This document shows, piece after piece, positions 9,343 through 15,464 of a DNA stretch of 64,000 nt. Position 1 is the stretch's first letter. Each line of letters begins with the position of its first letter. The DNA comes from Pelosinus sp. UFO1. Lineage in GTDB: Bacteria; Bacillota; Negativicutes; DSM-13327. The stretch is from contig NZ_CP008852.1 in the NCBI RefSeq assembly GCF_000725345.1, forward strand, positions 2,906,001 through 2,970,000. Reading direction: 5' to 3'. The translations under genes and the position numbers were made by a program. The notes under the pieces were generated by a model, which worked only from the letters and a program-made list of their open reading frames with translations, made no database searches and was not told the origin of the DNA.

Positions 9343-11637
9343 ATGGATATTCCTAAATACACACTCGCCTTCGCCATTACAGCATTACTTAGCACCAATT
9401 ACTTTATTCCTCTTGCCTGGGCTAACGATATACACCTGCCGGCTTTACAAATCGCCTATGAACAAAACCCTTATAATGAGCAAGCGGCCTACGACTATGC
9501 CTTAGCCCTAGCTCGCAATGAGCAATTCCCTTTGTCATTGAACCTATTTAAGCAGCTGTCTGCAAATAGTACGAATCCGAATATACTATTTGACTATGCC
9601 ACCGTGTTAGCATGGTCAGGAGATAATAGGGGCGCAATCTCACTATATGAAGACCAAATACTTCATCTTGAGAGGGTACCCCTATATGTTAAAAAGAACA
9701 TAGCCGGTGCCTACTACAAGCTGGCAAAATTCAAAGAAGCATACCTACTCTATCATGAAGTTGGTGCAGCTGGAGATCGCCAGGCTAGGCGCTGGGAAGC
9801 GGAAGCCTTGATGCACATAAATGATTTCGCCCTCGGAAATAAAATCTATGATCAGCTTATATTTGAAGATCCAACTGATATTGAAACTTATGTTAGCCGC
9901 GGGTCAATGCTGATTTTAGCTGGTGACCCAGTAACTGCTGCCATTGATGTAACGAGAGCACTCCAGTTAATACCTGCTGGTCAGGAAGGTAACCCAGAGC
10001 GTCAATTACGCAATGAGATGTCTATTGCTTTTATACAACATGGTGATTACAGCAGGGGCATCCTGCTATTACAACCAACAATAACCGATGGTTCTGCTAG
10101 TATGAAAATGCAATCAAATTATATTTATGCCCTAAGATTAAACAATGATTATAAGCTAGCAATTCAGGAAGCAACCAAACTTTGGACAGACCTCAGCCTA
10201 GTACCGGATTTTGGTTTGCAAGCCCTAGCTGATTCCTATCTTCGCTCAGCACAACTGCAAAAAGCGATATCAATATACAATTTAATTCTCCAGCGAGGCA
10301 ATGAGGGAACCAATTTAAAGTCTGTAAAATTAAGTTTAGCTTATGCCTATGTAAAATCTGGCAACCGAAGTAAAGGGTTGTCTCTCTATGATGAAATACT
10401 ATCTGCCCATCCTGACTTGGCCTATATAGTAGCAGAAGACGCTGCTTCTTTTATAGAAAGTAACGAATTTCTCACGGGTAAAATGTTATATAAAAAACTA
10501 ATTGCTGTTTTTCCAAATGATGTATTGTATCGAAAACAATTCGCTTATGCCTTATCCGAAAAGTATATGCCCCGAGAATCCTATGAGCAATATAAGGCCT
10601 TAAGTACACTGAAAGATGGTAATCTTGTTGGATTATCAGGTATCGTTAGCACAGCTCTAGCAGTAGGCGATTATAAAACAGCAGATACAGCACTTGATTC
10701 TCTTGAAGAAAGCTATTCCTATAGTCCTATTACAGATCAAGCAAGTAAACGGTATGAGGCTCGCCCCAAAGGCAGTATTGAATATAATTACCAGGTAGAA
10801 AGTGATTATAAAAACAACAACACAATAATAGCGGAACTTACGGCCAAGCTCCATATAAGGGGACGGTTCTCTCTATTAGCAGGGGCAAATAGGAATATCA
10901 TGAACAACGGAGTAAACTCCGCTACTTTACAAACCAATTCTTTTGGTCTCAAATACCAAGACACCAGGCAAGATGCTACCATTTGGCTAGACAATTATCG
11001 TTTTACTAACCTATTTACCGGTTATCGCTTCTTTGCCAATCACTATTTTAATGACAATTCTGTAGTGGGGTTAAAAGTAGAACGTGCTCCCATAAAAGAT
11101 CTAAAATCACTACTGTTGCCTATTATGTCTACTAATTATCAAGTAAGCTTTCATCGCCAATTGGGTCTTAAAGATCAGTATAACGTTGCTTTCGCCTCTT
11201 CCAATTACAGTGACAGCAATGTTTCGGAAACCTATGGAGTAAATTTAGAACACACTATGTTTTCAAATGAGAAAAAAACTCTAACCTGGTTTACATCTTT
11301 TGACCGAATTAATTACAAATACCAGGAAATAAAAGGTCAACCTTTGACCTATGAGCCTCCAACCGTTCGAGAAGCCTATGTTATAGGATTTAAAGAACGC
11401 TGGACTCTTGAAAAGAACTCTTGGAATGCAAATTTCAGAGCTGTTTGGGATCGAGATCGCCCTGAAGCATTTGCCTTTTCACCGAGCGTTGGTGTAGAGT
11501 TTAACCACCAATTTTCACCGAACAAAGTGCTCGTTGCAGGACTTGAGTATGGCTTTCATAATACCCTACCTACAAGCATAAACACTCTAGGCATTGGGTA
11601 TAAACAATCTTACCTTTATTACCGAGTGAATTGGTAG
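9343..11637 (+). CDS. pgaA: PgaA-like outer-membrane exporter of poly-beta-1,6-GlcNAc
   Basis: 764 residues: signal peptide (cut after LPLAWA-like residues near 27), then TPR-like helical repeats to about residue 450 (YDYALALARNEQ, YANAYAYVKSG-type units), then a beta-barrel of about 300 residues ending in YYRVNW. This TPR-plus-barrel plan is that of PgaA, which conveys partly deacetylated PNAG through the outer membrane. E. coli PgaA is about 807 residues. The terminal Trp fits outer-membrane targeting. It has its own GAGGAG site and runs into pgaB. Confidence 0.85.
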   Translation: MDIPKYTLAFAITALLSTNYFIPLAWANDIHLPALQIAYEQNPYNEQAAYDYALALARNEQFPLSLNLFKQLSANSTNPNILFDYATVLAWSGDNRGAISLYEDQILHLERVPLYVKKNIAGAYYKLAKFKEAYLLYHEVGAAGDRQARRWEAEALMHINDFALGNKIYDQLIFEDPTDIETYVSRGSMLILAGDPVTAAIDVTRALQLIPAGQEGNPERQLRNEMSIAFIQHGDYSRGILLLQPTITDGSASMKMQSNYIYALRLNNDYKLAIQEATKLWTDLSLVPDFGLQALADSYLRSAQLQKAISIYNLILQRGNEGTNLKSVKLSLAYAYVKSGNRSKGLSLYDEILSAHPDLAYIVAEDAASFIESNEFLTGKMLYKKLIAVFPNDVLYRKQFAYALSEKYMPRESYEQYKALSTLKDGNLVGLSGIVSTALAVGDYKTADTALDSLEESYSYSPITDQASKRYEARPKGSIEYNYQVESDYKNNNTIIAELTAKLHIRGRFSLLAGANRNIMNNGVNSATLQTNSFGLKYQDTRQDATIWLDNYRFTNLFTGYRFFANHYFNDNSVVGLKVERAPIKDLKSLLLPIMSTNYQVSFHRQLGLKDQYNVAFASSNYSDSNVSETYGVNLEHTMFSNEKKTLTWFTSFDRINYKYQEIKGQPLTYEPPTVREAYVIGFKERWTLEKNSWNANFRAVWDRDRPEAFAFSPSVGVEFNHQFSPNKVLVAGLEYGFHNTLPTSINTLGIGYKQSYLYYRVNW

Positions 11638-11672: not shown

Positions 11673-13523
11673 ATGGTGCCTAATCTCTTGCTTACCACAG
11701 CTTTATCCTTACTGTTTTTTTTATCGTTTACAAGCCCAGTTATTGCAGCAGAGGAAAATGGTGTTATGATTCTTTGTTATCATGATGTTGTGGAACACCC
11801 CTACAACACCTTTACGATTACTCCCAATACGTTGAAAGAACACTTTGAATTTCTCAAGAAGAATGGCTACCATCCTATATCATTAGATCAATATCTTGAG
11901 GCCTCTACGCAGGGTACCCCTTTACCCAATAAGCCTATTTTACTTACTTTTGATGATGGTTATCTATCACTTTACACTAAGGTATATCCACTACTTAAAG
12001 AATATAATTACCCTGCAGTCTCGGCCATTGTTACCTCTTGGACAGACTATGCTCCACCGGATGTAGGAGAGGTAATAACATGGGGACAAATACGGGAAAT
12101 GGAAAAGTCGGGATTAATTTCTTTTGCATCTCATACTCACCAATCTCATCGCTCCGCCATAATGAACCCCCAAGGTGATAGTGGAAAGATGACAGAAACC
12201 TTACAATATATTCACGGACAATATGAATCTATTGATATCTATCATCAACGTATACAAAGTGATTTAAAACAAAGCCAGACCGTCTTTGAAAAGGAGCTCG
12301 GACACAAGGTAAAAGCGATTGCTTGGCCTTATGGCAGTTACACGAAATCTGCAATTGACATTGCCCAGAAAGAAGGTTTTACCTTGTTTTTAGGGCTAGA
12401 TGACGTTTTTAACTCTTTAACTCCCTCCAGCATGACAAATGCCCGTCGAGGAATTATAGAAACAAATTTGACAGGAGACAAATTTGCTAATTTTCTAAAA
12501 TCAGGTACTCATACATCCAAACAAATGATGGCTGCGCAACTTGACATTGATCTTATTTATGATCCATTAAGTGCTAGCGAAACGGAAAATAATCTTGCCC
12601 TAGCAATTGAATCTTTGCGTGCTGCCGAAATAAATACAATCTTTTTACAAGGATTTAGTGATATAAATGGGAATGGGAACATCGAAAGTGTTTATTTTTA
12701 TACTAAAGAAGCTCCTGTTCGAGCTGACATTTTCAGTCATATCGCTGCAAAACTCCGTAAAGAAGGATTTATAGTTTATGCTTGGATGCCCACCTTGGCC
12801 TGCCAATGGCTGTTAAAAGATCGACCAGAAGATACAGTTATTGCTTACTCAGACAAAGGGAAGGGTTGGTACAATCGAGCAACATCATTTAGTCCAGAGG
12901 TACAAACACATTTAGAAGCACTATTTAGTGACCTAGCAGCTTATAGTTACATTGACGGTATCTTATTTCAAGATGACTTATATCTTAACGACTATGAGGA
13001 TTTTTCACCAGCAGCAAAGAGATCCTTTTATAATTCTACAGGTCTAGCATTAACTCCTGAAATCTTACAAGACAGTGAAACCCAAGCCCAATGGGCACAA
13101 ATCAAAACAAAGGCTTTAACAGATCTAACTAAAAAACTTATCGTAGCGATGAAGCAGTATCGCCCTTATCTAGCAACAGCACGTAATTTATACCCTACCA
13201 TTATAACTGAGCCTCAATCTGAATTTTGGTTGTCCCAAAATTATGATCAATACCTCACCACTTACGATTACACCATTGTTATGGCTTACCCCTATATGGA
13301 AAAGCAGTATGATAAGCCCCTTGTCTGGTTAGGCCAGCTTGCAGATACGGCTTTAAAAAATAAAGTCAATACCTCTAAAGTAGTCTTTAAGCTACAAACC
13401 TACGACTGGCATAAAAAACAATGGCTTAGTGTCAGGGAATTACAGCAGCAGGTTGCTACTTTAAAAAGCAAGCATGTCATTCATTTTGCTTTTTATCCTG
13501 AAAATATATTTTCATCACCATAA
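11673..13523 (+). CDS. pgaB: PgaB-like poly-beta-1,6-GlcNAc N-deacetylase
   Basis: Periplasmic enzyme that partly deacetylates PNAG for export. Signal peptide at residues 1-26 (ending VIAA); polysaccharide-deacetylase (NodB) domain with D94-D95 in LTFDDGY and metal histidines in H154-T-H156-QSH159; the C-terminal half (from ~residue 300) is the PgaB glycosidase-like domain. Product length is 616 against ~670 in E. coli; I see no lipobox cysteine. A frame open from a TTG at 11631 overlaps the pgaA stop, but ATG 11673 follows AGGAAAGGAGA and begins the signal peptide, so I choose it. Confidence 0.9.
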   Translation: MVPNLLLTTALSLLFFLSFTSPVIAAEENGVMILCYHDVVEHPYNTFTITPNTLKEHFEFLKKNGYHPISLDQYLEASTQGTPLPNKPILLTFDDGYLSLYTKVYPLLKEYNYPAVSAIVTSWTDYAPPDVGEVITWGQIREMEKSGLISFASHTHQSHRSAIMNPQGDSGKMTETLQYIHGQYESIDIYHQRIQSDLKQSQTVFEKELGHKVKAIAWPYGSYTKSAIDIAQKEGFTLFLGLDDVFNSLTPSSMTNARRGIIETNLTGDKFANFLKSGTHTSKQMMAAQLDIDLIYDPLSASETENNLALAIESLRAAEINTIFLQGFSDINGNGNIESVYFYTKEAPVRADIFSHIAAKLRKEGFIVYAWMPTLACQWLLKDRPEDTVIAYSDKGKGWYNRATSFSPEVQTHLEALFSDLAAYSYIDGILFQDDLYLNDYEDFSPAAKRSFYNSTGLALTPEILQDSETQAQWAQIKTKALTDLTKKLIVAMKQYRPYLATARNLYPTIITEPQSEFWLSQNYDQYLTTYDYTIVMAYPYMEKQYDKPLVWLGQLADTALKNKVNTSKVVFKLQTYDWHKKQWLSVRELQQQVATLKSKHVIHFAFYPENIFSSP

Positions 13524-13554: not shown

Positions 13555-14799
13555 ATGCTTACTAGCACAATAATTACTTTTTTTATAAACTTTCTTTTCT
13601 ACTACCCTTTCGCTATGAGCATACTTTGGACATTGGGTGCATTGTTCTTTTATTTTCGGCGTGAACATAACAAAAGCCGTGAAGCACCGATATTTGATCA
13701 ATATCCGTTTGTATCTGTTCTTATTCCTGCCCACAATGAAGAAATCTCAATTTCTAGCACGATTTTTAGTATCTTATCATCGAATTACCCGAATTTTGAG
13801 GTGATTGTCGTAGATGATGGCAGTATTGATAAAACACCTGCTATATTGGAAGAAATGGTGGACCGTTACCCCAAACTGCGCTTCCTGCGGCTACAAGAAA
13901 ATAGAGGGAAACCTACTGCACTACGTTATGGAACCTTAGCAAGTCGTGGAGATATTATTCTTACCATCGATGCAGATGCCCATCTCGATGCTGACGCAAT
14001 CCATTGGATGGTTGGTCACTTTTTAAGTGGTCCTAGGGTAGGCGCGGTTACAGGAAACCCTAGAGTACGAAACCGCACTACTTTACTAGCGAAAATTCAA
14101 GTAGGTGAATACTCGTCTATTATTGGTATGATTAAACGAACTCAGCGAATCTTAGGCAAGGTATTAACTGTCTCAGGTGTCATTGTTGCATTTCGTAAGC
14201 AAGCCCTCTTGGATGTAGATCTTTGGGACATTGATATGATTACTGATGATATTAATATTACTTGGAAGCTAGAAAAACGATTTTGGGATATTCGCTATGA
14301 ACCCAATGCCCTGTGCTGGATTTTAGTGCCAGAAAGTTTATCAGGTCTATGGAAGCAACGAGTCCGCTGGGCCCAAGGAGGCGGTGAAGTCATTCGGCGT
14401 CATATTAACATTTGGACAGATTGGCGCCAGCGCCGTATGTGGCCTGTATATCTTGAATATGTAACATCTGTCATGTGGTCCTACACCTATGTTACTTTTC
14501 TGTCCCTATGGATTCTAAGCTTACTATTCCCGTTTATGAATCTTCATGCTATGAGTTTACTTCCTGGTTGGAAGGGGTCTCTATTGGTTTTGATTTCAGT
14601 TATACAATTTAGTGCGGCACTTTATATCGATAAACGTTATGAAAAAGGCCTTTTTAAATATGTATTTTGGGTAATATGGTATCCTTGGGTTTACTGGATT
14701 ATTACTGCATTCGCCACAGTCAAAGCTACACCGACTGCCCTTTTTCGTAAAATGGGGACCCCTGCAACATGGGTGAGCCCAGATCGAGGTTTATCCTAA
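13555..14799 (+). CDS. pgaC: PgaC-like poly-beta-1,6-GlcNAc synthase (GT2)
   Basis: Processive inner-membrane glycosyltransferase polymerising UDP-GlcNAc. In the 414-residue product: N-terminal membrane segment(s) at residues 8-35; GT2 motifs DDGS 87-90, DADA 139-142, TDD 230-232 (acceptor/base region) and QRVRW 268-272; then C-terminal membrane segments. The frame reaches upstream into pgaB, but ATG 13555 follows AAAGGAG and gives the family start. E. coli PgaC is 441 residues. It acts together with PgaD, normally under c-di-GMP control; no diguanylate cyclase is in the window. Confidence 0.93.
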   Translation: MLTSTIITFFINFLFYYPFAMSILWTLGALFFYFRREHNKSREAPIFDQYPFVSVLIPAHNEEISISSTIFSILSSNYPNFEVIVVDDGSIDKTPAILEEMVDRYPKLRFLRLQENRGKPTALRYGTLASRGDIILTIDADAHLDADAIHWMVGHFLSGPRVGAVTGNPRVRNRTTLLAKIQVGEYSSIIGMIKRTQRILGKVLTVSGVIVAFRKQALLDVDLWDIDMITDDINITWKLEKRFWDIRYEPNALCWILVPESLSGLWKQRVRWAQGGGEVIRRHINIWTDWRQRRMWPVYLEYVTSVMWSYTYVTFLSLWILSLLFPFMNLHAMSLLPGWKGSLLVLISVIQFSAALYIDKRYEKGLFKYVFWVIWYPWVYWIITAFATVKATPTALFRKMGTPATWVSPDRGLS

Positions 14800-14853
14800 A
14801 ATATTTTTTGAGGTGTTAAGGCCAGCATTGCTAGCATCTTCGGGGGTGATAAA

Positions 14854-15423
14854 ATAGGTAGTCACTTACTAATCAATAAACCACAACTAAAGAGTTTCTT
14901 ACTACGTATTTTAGAAACTTTTTTTTCCGCATTATTTTGGATATTCTTTCTTTACTTCTGCTATCCATTACTAATTGCTACTTTTTCCATATTTATGGAC
15001 CATTGGTATATTTTAGACTTTTCTCCCTACTCATCGCCCAAACCCACTCTCGAAATGATGCTATATACCTTTATCTTTGCTCTATTTATTCTTATTTTAC
15101 TAATAAGCTGGTCATCATGGAATTATTTGTGTTATGGCTGCTTAGATCGTCGCACCCCCCCTGCTACGGTTCCCAACTCCAAATTAGCCCTGGCCTTTAA
15201 TATACCACTAGAAACTATTATCAATGCCCGTGACGCCAAATATGCGTTAATTACACCAGCACAGTTTACGTTTACCCTTACCCTGCTAAAAAGATTATCA
15301 TCAACCTCTCCTTGTTTATACTTGGAAAGAGTAAGTCCCTTGCCTTGGAAGAAGCTAAATGATGCTTCACTGAAAACAAAGACACTCTATTTCCCTACAC
15401 TTCACAGAAAGTTGATAGAATAG
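14854..15423 (+). CDS. pgaD: PgaD-like subunit of PNAG synthase, with apparent non-canonical start
   Basis: Small inner-membrane partner of PgaC. The frame codes two hydrophobic segments (FFSALFWIFFLYFCYPLL and LYTFIFALFILILLISW) and then a soluble tail, the PgaD plan (E. coli 137 residues; 189 here). The frame is open from 14812, yet has no ATG, GTG or TTG until ATG 14995, which would remove the first membrane segment. An ATA at 14854 lies about six bases after GGGGGTG, just where PgaD-like sequence (LLINKPQ) begins. Either AUA (or an AUU further up at 14827) is used, or the gene is damaged or miscalled at one base. Confidence 0.7.
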   Translation: MGSHLLINKPQLKSFLLRILETFFSALFWIFFLYFCYPLLIATFSIFMDHWYILDFSPYSSPKPTLEMMLYTFIFALFILILLISWSSWNYLCYGCLDRRTPPATVPNSKLALAFNIPLETIINARDAKYALITPAQFTFTLTLLKRLSSTSPCLYLERVSPLPWKKLNDASLKTKTLYFPTLHRKLIE

Positions 15424-15464
15424 AAAAAACTATCTTATGTTATCACGTAAGATAGTTTTTTCTA
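15422..15464 (+). terminator. Terminator of the pga operon (possibly bidirectional)
   Basis: AAAAAACTATCTTA-tgttatcacg-TAAGATAGTTTTTT, immediately after pgaD and before the convergent hemerythrin gene; U-tracts on both strands. Confidence 0.9.

Follow-up and report, generated by a model that had tools for sequence, protein, structure and literature searches.

Probable translation of pgaD from an AUA codon behind an extended Shine-Dalgarno sequence in Pelosinus sp. UFO1

In Pelosinus sp. UFO1, the pgaD gene, which closes a pgaABCD cluster for the exopolysaccharide PNAG, is probably translated from an AUA codon at position 14854, as judged from its sequence context and its conservation. The cluster lies on the plus strand of the window, i.e., the 64,000-nucleotide stretch of contig NZ_CP008852.1 that was analysed, and consists of a pgaA-like porin gene, pgaB, pgaC and pgaD, in that order. 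The first gene (9343–11637) encodes an outer-membrane export porin with TPR repeats, whose matches to TIGR03939 (4.4e-23) and PF21197 PgaA_barrel (2.7e-4) both score under the curated cut-off. The PNAG N-deacetylase gene pgaB (11673–13523; TIGR03938, 559.7 bits; PF14883 and PF01522), for which the ATG was picked to agree with the ORF start of a relative, and the PNAG synthase glycosyltransferase gene pgaC (13555–14799; TIGR03937, 542.7 bits), which begins with an ATG behind the Shine-Dalgarno (SD) sequence AAGGAG, are both equivalogs over their cut-offs, so that pgaD stands in the neighborhood expected for its family, with the reservation that the porin is recognized only below cut-off. Directly 3′ of pgaD, on the same strand, an inverted repeat (AAAAAACTATCTTA...TAAGATAGTTTTTT) followed by a T-run (15424–15461; read from the sequence) is the probable terminator of the pga operon. 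The repeat is mostly kept in a second species of the genus (G006), where one arm carries a mismatch and indels of single bases occur.

The pgaD frame is bounded upstream by TGA at 14809–14811 and ends with TAG at 15421–15423. It is the same frame as that of pgaC, from which it is separated by two stops (TAA at 14797 and TGA at 14809), so that read-through from pgaC was set aside; the ATA follows the pgaC stop after 54 nt. If started at the ATA (14854–14856, plus strand), the coding sequence (14854–15423) comprises 189 codons and the stop. The protein read from 14857 belongs to the PgaD family by the curated cut-offs of both Pfam PF13994 (E 1.1e-11; 45.3 bits against a cut-off of 27) and NCBIfam TIGR03940 PGA_PgaD (44.9 bits against 31.45). 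Because the PF13994 match begins at residue 4, counting 14857 as residue 1, the conserved PgaD domain begins just after the ATA. A role in PNAG synthesis and c-di-GMP binding together with PgaC is a property of the family and is predicted for this protein. The first ATG, GTG or TTG in the frame is the ATG at 14995, 47 codons past the ATA; the expected N-terminus holds an AUH codon and no usable in-frame standard start.

Upstream of the ATA lies an extended SD sequence, GGGGGTGAT (14842–14850, plus strand), which can form nine consecutive pairs, one of them G.U, with the 16S tail; the 16S 3′ end was read from the Pelosinus genome as GGATCACCTCCTTTCT. The pairing of GGGGGUGAU with this tail amounts to −13.4 kcal/mol, and the GGGGG core is 7 nt from the ATA. 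The initial annotation had described an intact frame, PgaD-like from about 14854, with no standard start before 14995 and with an ATA well spaced from GGGGGTG (14842–14848), and this description was confirmed throughout. On both strands of the window, an SD sequence this strong at a distance of 5–10 nt precedes 1 of 3,284 ATA triplets, which is the ATA at 14854 itself, and none of 2,274 ATG triplets. It also precedes 1 of 3,951 ATT, 1 of 2,845 TTG and 0 of 1,198 GTG triplets, the ATT and the TTG being one site (59176/59177), and among positions of any kind it was found at 18 of 127,934. The other seven of the eight in-frame AUH codons between 14812 and 14994 have SD scores of 0 to −2.1. The predicted RNA structure around the pgaD start is unremarkable (z 0.75; 157 of 200 shuffled sequences fold equally well or better).

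Under the explanation proposed here, the nine-base helix between GGGGGUGAU and the 16S tail would hold the 30S subunit over the AUA, and the initiator tRNA could then start at this poor codon, which is normally discriminated against by IF3. Much less protein would be made than from an AUG, and this would limit PgaD, the partner needed by PgaC; a small supply of PgaD would in turn leave PNAG synthesis modest and sensitive to control through c-di-GMP and PgaC. If the AUA is the start, the pga cluster is intact and carries a built-in brake on PgaD, whose amount determines PNAG synthesis in E. coli, and one more natural AUA start is added to the short list of those outside infC; genes of this kind could then be found through searches for extended SD sequences. 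Gene callers limited to ATG, GTG and TTG would mark pgaD as truncated or broken, and the absence of PNAG could be inferred from such a call.

Initiation at AUA with the aid of an extended SD sequence is a known mechanism with experimental precedent in Staphylococcus aureus (PMC13009471). There, infC, ccpN and citZ are given AUA starts and cvfC1 an AUU start, all four mapped by Ribo-Ret; in RPMI, luciferase reporters of ccpN, citZ and cvfC1 reached about 10% of the AUG level, and in BHI the ccpN reporter reached as much as 30%; and the codon and the SD sequence of ccpN and cvfC1 are described as conserved (PMC13009471). These genes and pgaD have in common an AUA or AUU start with extended SD–anti-SD pairing close by. 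They differ in that the pgaD start is proposed from sequence and would lie in an exopolysaccharide gene of a presumably distantly related Firmicute. By analogy with these reporters, a low level of PgaD is a reasonable expectation from the rare start. The pgaABCD cluster of Escherichia coli has the same gene order and its PgaD belongs to the same family; there, PgaC requires PgaD for its activity, and PgaD loses stability when c-di-GMP or PgaC is missing, as reviewed in PMC8461298. In the work cited there, the control of PgaD is post-translational, through stability, whereas a translational setting is proposed for the Pelosinus gene. Among the titles and abstracts listed for pgaD or Pelosinus together with start codons, nothing relevant was seen, and biofilm or pga terms were not found in PMC6107796.

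The conservation of the arrangement was examined in a genus set of eight genomes, including that of UFO1. A close copy of pgaD is present in two of them, UFO1 and G006, which is a different species by the way the set was built; none of the six others has a close copy, although a distant match is present in one. The PgaD of the second species is 89% identical in protein, and the ATA, the SD sequence and the entire 30-nt block at 14827–14856 are identical. In the 54-nt interval that follows the pgaC stop and ends at the ATA there are three differences, all of them 5′ of 14827. The codon and its SD sequence are thus conserved in the one close copy found (1 of 1), two sequences in all, and the identity of the 30-nt block is suggestive, not decisive, given a divergence of about 8%. 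Family and order searches (10 genomes each) gave G006 as the sole further close copy, as did a DNA search of 21 genomes, and searches at the level of the class (300 genomes) and the phylum (398 genomes), both sampled from larger groups, otherwise gave distant PgaD proteins only. No pgaD copy was found in a plasmid search; a contig search with the single PgaD protein gave no match, and one with a PgaD alignment gave a single match, probably a long-form relative (G043:C35; see below).

Between the two species, pgaD has 47 differences at 564 positions, of which 25 are synonymous and 22 nonsynonymous, and dN/dS is 0.23 over 14857–15420. For the same pair of genomes, the values are 0.27 for pgaA, 0.205 for pgaB and 0.07 for pgaC. 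The 46 codons between the ATA and the first standard start (14857–14994) contain 5 synonymous and 3 nonsynonymous changes, with a dN/dS of 0.15 against 0.26 for the rest; these are small numbers, and they point to a translated and constrained N-terminus.

The starts of other PgaD proteins were compared with the position of the ATA. Eight shorter-type loci, selected from the hits, were read (L002, L004, L005 and L046–L050); L002, L004 and L005 are one gene in three genomes, and L048 may not be a short form, as its open frame runs to 603 codons. When window residue 1 is projected without gaps onto these loci, all eight have a standard ATG no more than 7 residues before or 2 residues after the matching position. 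The ATA itself is one codon before the position matching that residue. Some of the eight loci have extra standard starts near the ATG. L002 is a paralogue in the UFO1 genome, and L004 and L005 are the corresponding genes of two further genomes from the genus. Among homologues from other families, those that match better (L036–L045; 28–38% identical) are of a long form, in which some 85–130 codons of open frame precede the domain. This extension looks like an N-terminal membrane segment, and by inspection the long-form starts are often TTG. Since these better matches are of the long form, the ancestral N-terminus of PgaD is uncertain, and the protein may be slightly longer. In UFO1 and the second species, pgaD either is of the short form or has lost the extension. 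We also considered that a deletion of the extension took the original start with it and made the AUA necessary, with no intermediate to show it.

The presence of standard ATG codons near this position in the eight shorter-type loci, together with the facts that ATA is one base from ATG and that the SD sequence is still in place, would fit a loss of the start codon, by which PgaD is not made, PNAG synthesis is off and the remainder is a pseudogene. A different species carries the same ATA, however, and the frame has been kept open under a dN/dS like those of pgaA and pgaB and above that of pgaC, which would not be expected had pgaD been silent since the species split. Neither the relaxed constraint nor the strain-private lesion of a start-loss pseudogene is seen, and we regard this reading as distinctly improbable. 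A point mutation that silences PNAG synthesis in this strain had been offered in the initial annotation as the alternative to an AUA start, and a sequencing error as a reason for doubt; the first is not borne out as far as it can be checked, as the only close copy found has ATA and not ATG, and an error of sequencing or assembly at the ATA was rejected, since the other species has the same bases. Because the block of ATA and SD sequence is identical in both, it is very unlikely that the ATA is an error or a mutation private to the strain. The AUA start of the infC kind that the initial annotation favored is instead supported by this identity, by purifying selection, by the exceptional SD sequence and by the ATT start of infC in the same genome (see below). 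Since the second species has the same arrangement, it looks like a retained low-output setting and not like damage.

Two other codons within the conserved block were weighed against the AUA. Translation from the in-frame AUU at 14827 would add nine residues; AUU is a classical non-canonical start, a GAGG(A/T)G further 5′ could serve as its SD sequence, and the two species do not differ in the 30 nt that run from this AUU to the AUA. Its SD pairing, on the other hand, reaches only −2.1 kcal/mol at 10 nt (−6.6 in the second species) against −13.4 for the AUA, and the shorter-type homologues that were read have their ATG near the AUA position, which makes a start at 14827 very unlikely. The out-of-frame UUG at 14828, absent from the account in the initial annotation, opens a possible nine-codon leader ORF (14828–14857, plus strand, TTG...TAG), whose UAG overlaps the AUA as AUAG. 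This ORF is a candidate with the same TTG and stop in the second species. PgaD might be reached from it through −1 slippage at A-AAA-UAG (14851–14857) or through termination and restart at AUAG. Both species share the UUG and the A-run as well as the nine-codon ORF with its UAG, and by inspection pgaD seems to start at a UUG in several relatives with the long form. A strong SD sequence just upstream can also stimulate slippage, and one lies just 5′ of this site. The UUG itself, however, has a weak SD sequence (−2.1, and −6.6 in the second species, at a spacing of 11), a standard slippery heptamer is lacking and only the P-site AAA could re-pair, and less has to be assumed for direct initiation at the AUA; the restart version agrees with the AUA as start and does not oppose it. 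On balance, a UUG origin of PgaD is highly unlikely. Finally, the ATG at 14995 is the first standard start in frame and would be taken by a standard-start gene caller (142 aa), but it is barely credible as the true start, as it has no SD sequence and drops 46 residues that include the conserved beginning of the PgaD domain, look by eye like the first membrane segment and have the lower dN/dS given above, on small numbers.

Comparable starts were also sought elsewhere in the genome. The infC gene of UFO1 has an ATT start behind AGGGGGTGA (−13.9 kcal/mol, spacing 9) and no in-frame standard start upstream, and its GGGGGTGAGCGACAATT string is the same in all five genomes read (G000–G004). It resembles pgaD in the SD core GGGGGTGA, in the non-canonical AUH codon and in the lack of an in-frame ATG, GTG or TTG upstream, and differs in the codon, AUU, and in the 9-nt spacing. 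The genome was scanned with the pattern GGRGGTGA-N4-6-ATH, with the reversed pattern as control. The pattern matched 35 times, at 34 places, and its reverse 29 times, so that the combination of SD sequence and AUH is not clearly enriched overall; the two patterns are also about equally frequent in the seven further genomes of the genus. An open frame of at least 150 codons follows at 7 of the 34 places, namely infC, pgaD, rpoN, a patatin-like gene and the loci L087, L088 and L105. Among these seven, only infC and pgaD have no in-frame standard start either upstream or within 15 codons downstream. Three were dropped as AUH starts: in L105 the very next codon is ATG, L088 has other standard starts close by, both in frame and out of it, and in L087 a GTG preceded by a GAGGTG of its own lies three codons upstream. 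The sigma-54 gene rpoN (TIGR02395, 458.9 bits; L108, G000:C1 ~4264593, minus strand; also L139–L142) appears to start at an ATC behind GGAGGTGATTCCT, with the same codon and SD sequence in five of five genomes read; upstream, the sole standard start in its frame is a GTG that falls within its own SD sequence. The patatin-like phospholipase gene (PF01734; L112, G000:C1 ~2231257, plus strand) has GGGGGTGATCTTATT at the expected N-terminus, with an in-frame ATG 25 and a TTG 8 codons upstream. Both rpoN and the patatin-like gene are further candidates for AUH starts.

In the genus scan, 20 of at least 125 matches listed for G001–G004 were examined, chosen as recurring or pgaD-like strings. Eleven of the 20 are infC, rpoN or an LD-carboxypeptidase gene, and the other nine open no frame longer than 24 codons. 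The LD-carboxypeptidase gene (S66; PF02016; L143, L144 and L145) has an ATT behind GGAGGTGATCTT in G002, G003 and G004 and appears to start at this ATT in the three species. G002 and G003 have an in-frame ATG 37 codons upstream, and in G004 no standard start precedes the ATT in its frame. It is conceivable, though doubtful, that infC (AUU), rpoN (AUC), pgaD (AUA), the patatin-like gene (AUU) and the LD-carboxypeptidase gene (AUU) form, in this genus, a small group with AUH starts behind nearly perfect extended SD sequences, the translation of which would go up and down with the stringency of IF3; this would tie biofilm polysaccharide and sigma-54 output to the state of translation. At pgaD, the overlapping nine-codon leader ORF (AUAG) might add coupling. 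We know of no reason for an autoregulation of pgaD through IF3. In E. coli, autoregulation by IF3 is established (PMC13009471).

Two observations concern PgaD outside the window. The paralogue L002 belongs to a second pgaC-pgaD pair in the UFO1 genome (G000:C1 ~4011295–4014672), in which the short PgaD has an ATG behind AGGAGGT; the gene after this pair resembles, by eye, a GH10 xylanase. In L041, L044 and L045, from three genomes of other families, the PgaD domain runs in frame into a further protein within an open frame of more than 900 codons, and by eye this fused protein looks like a cellulose synthase regulatory subunit, presumably BcsB-like.
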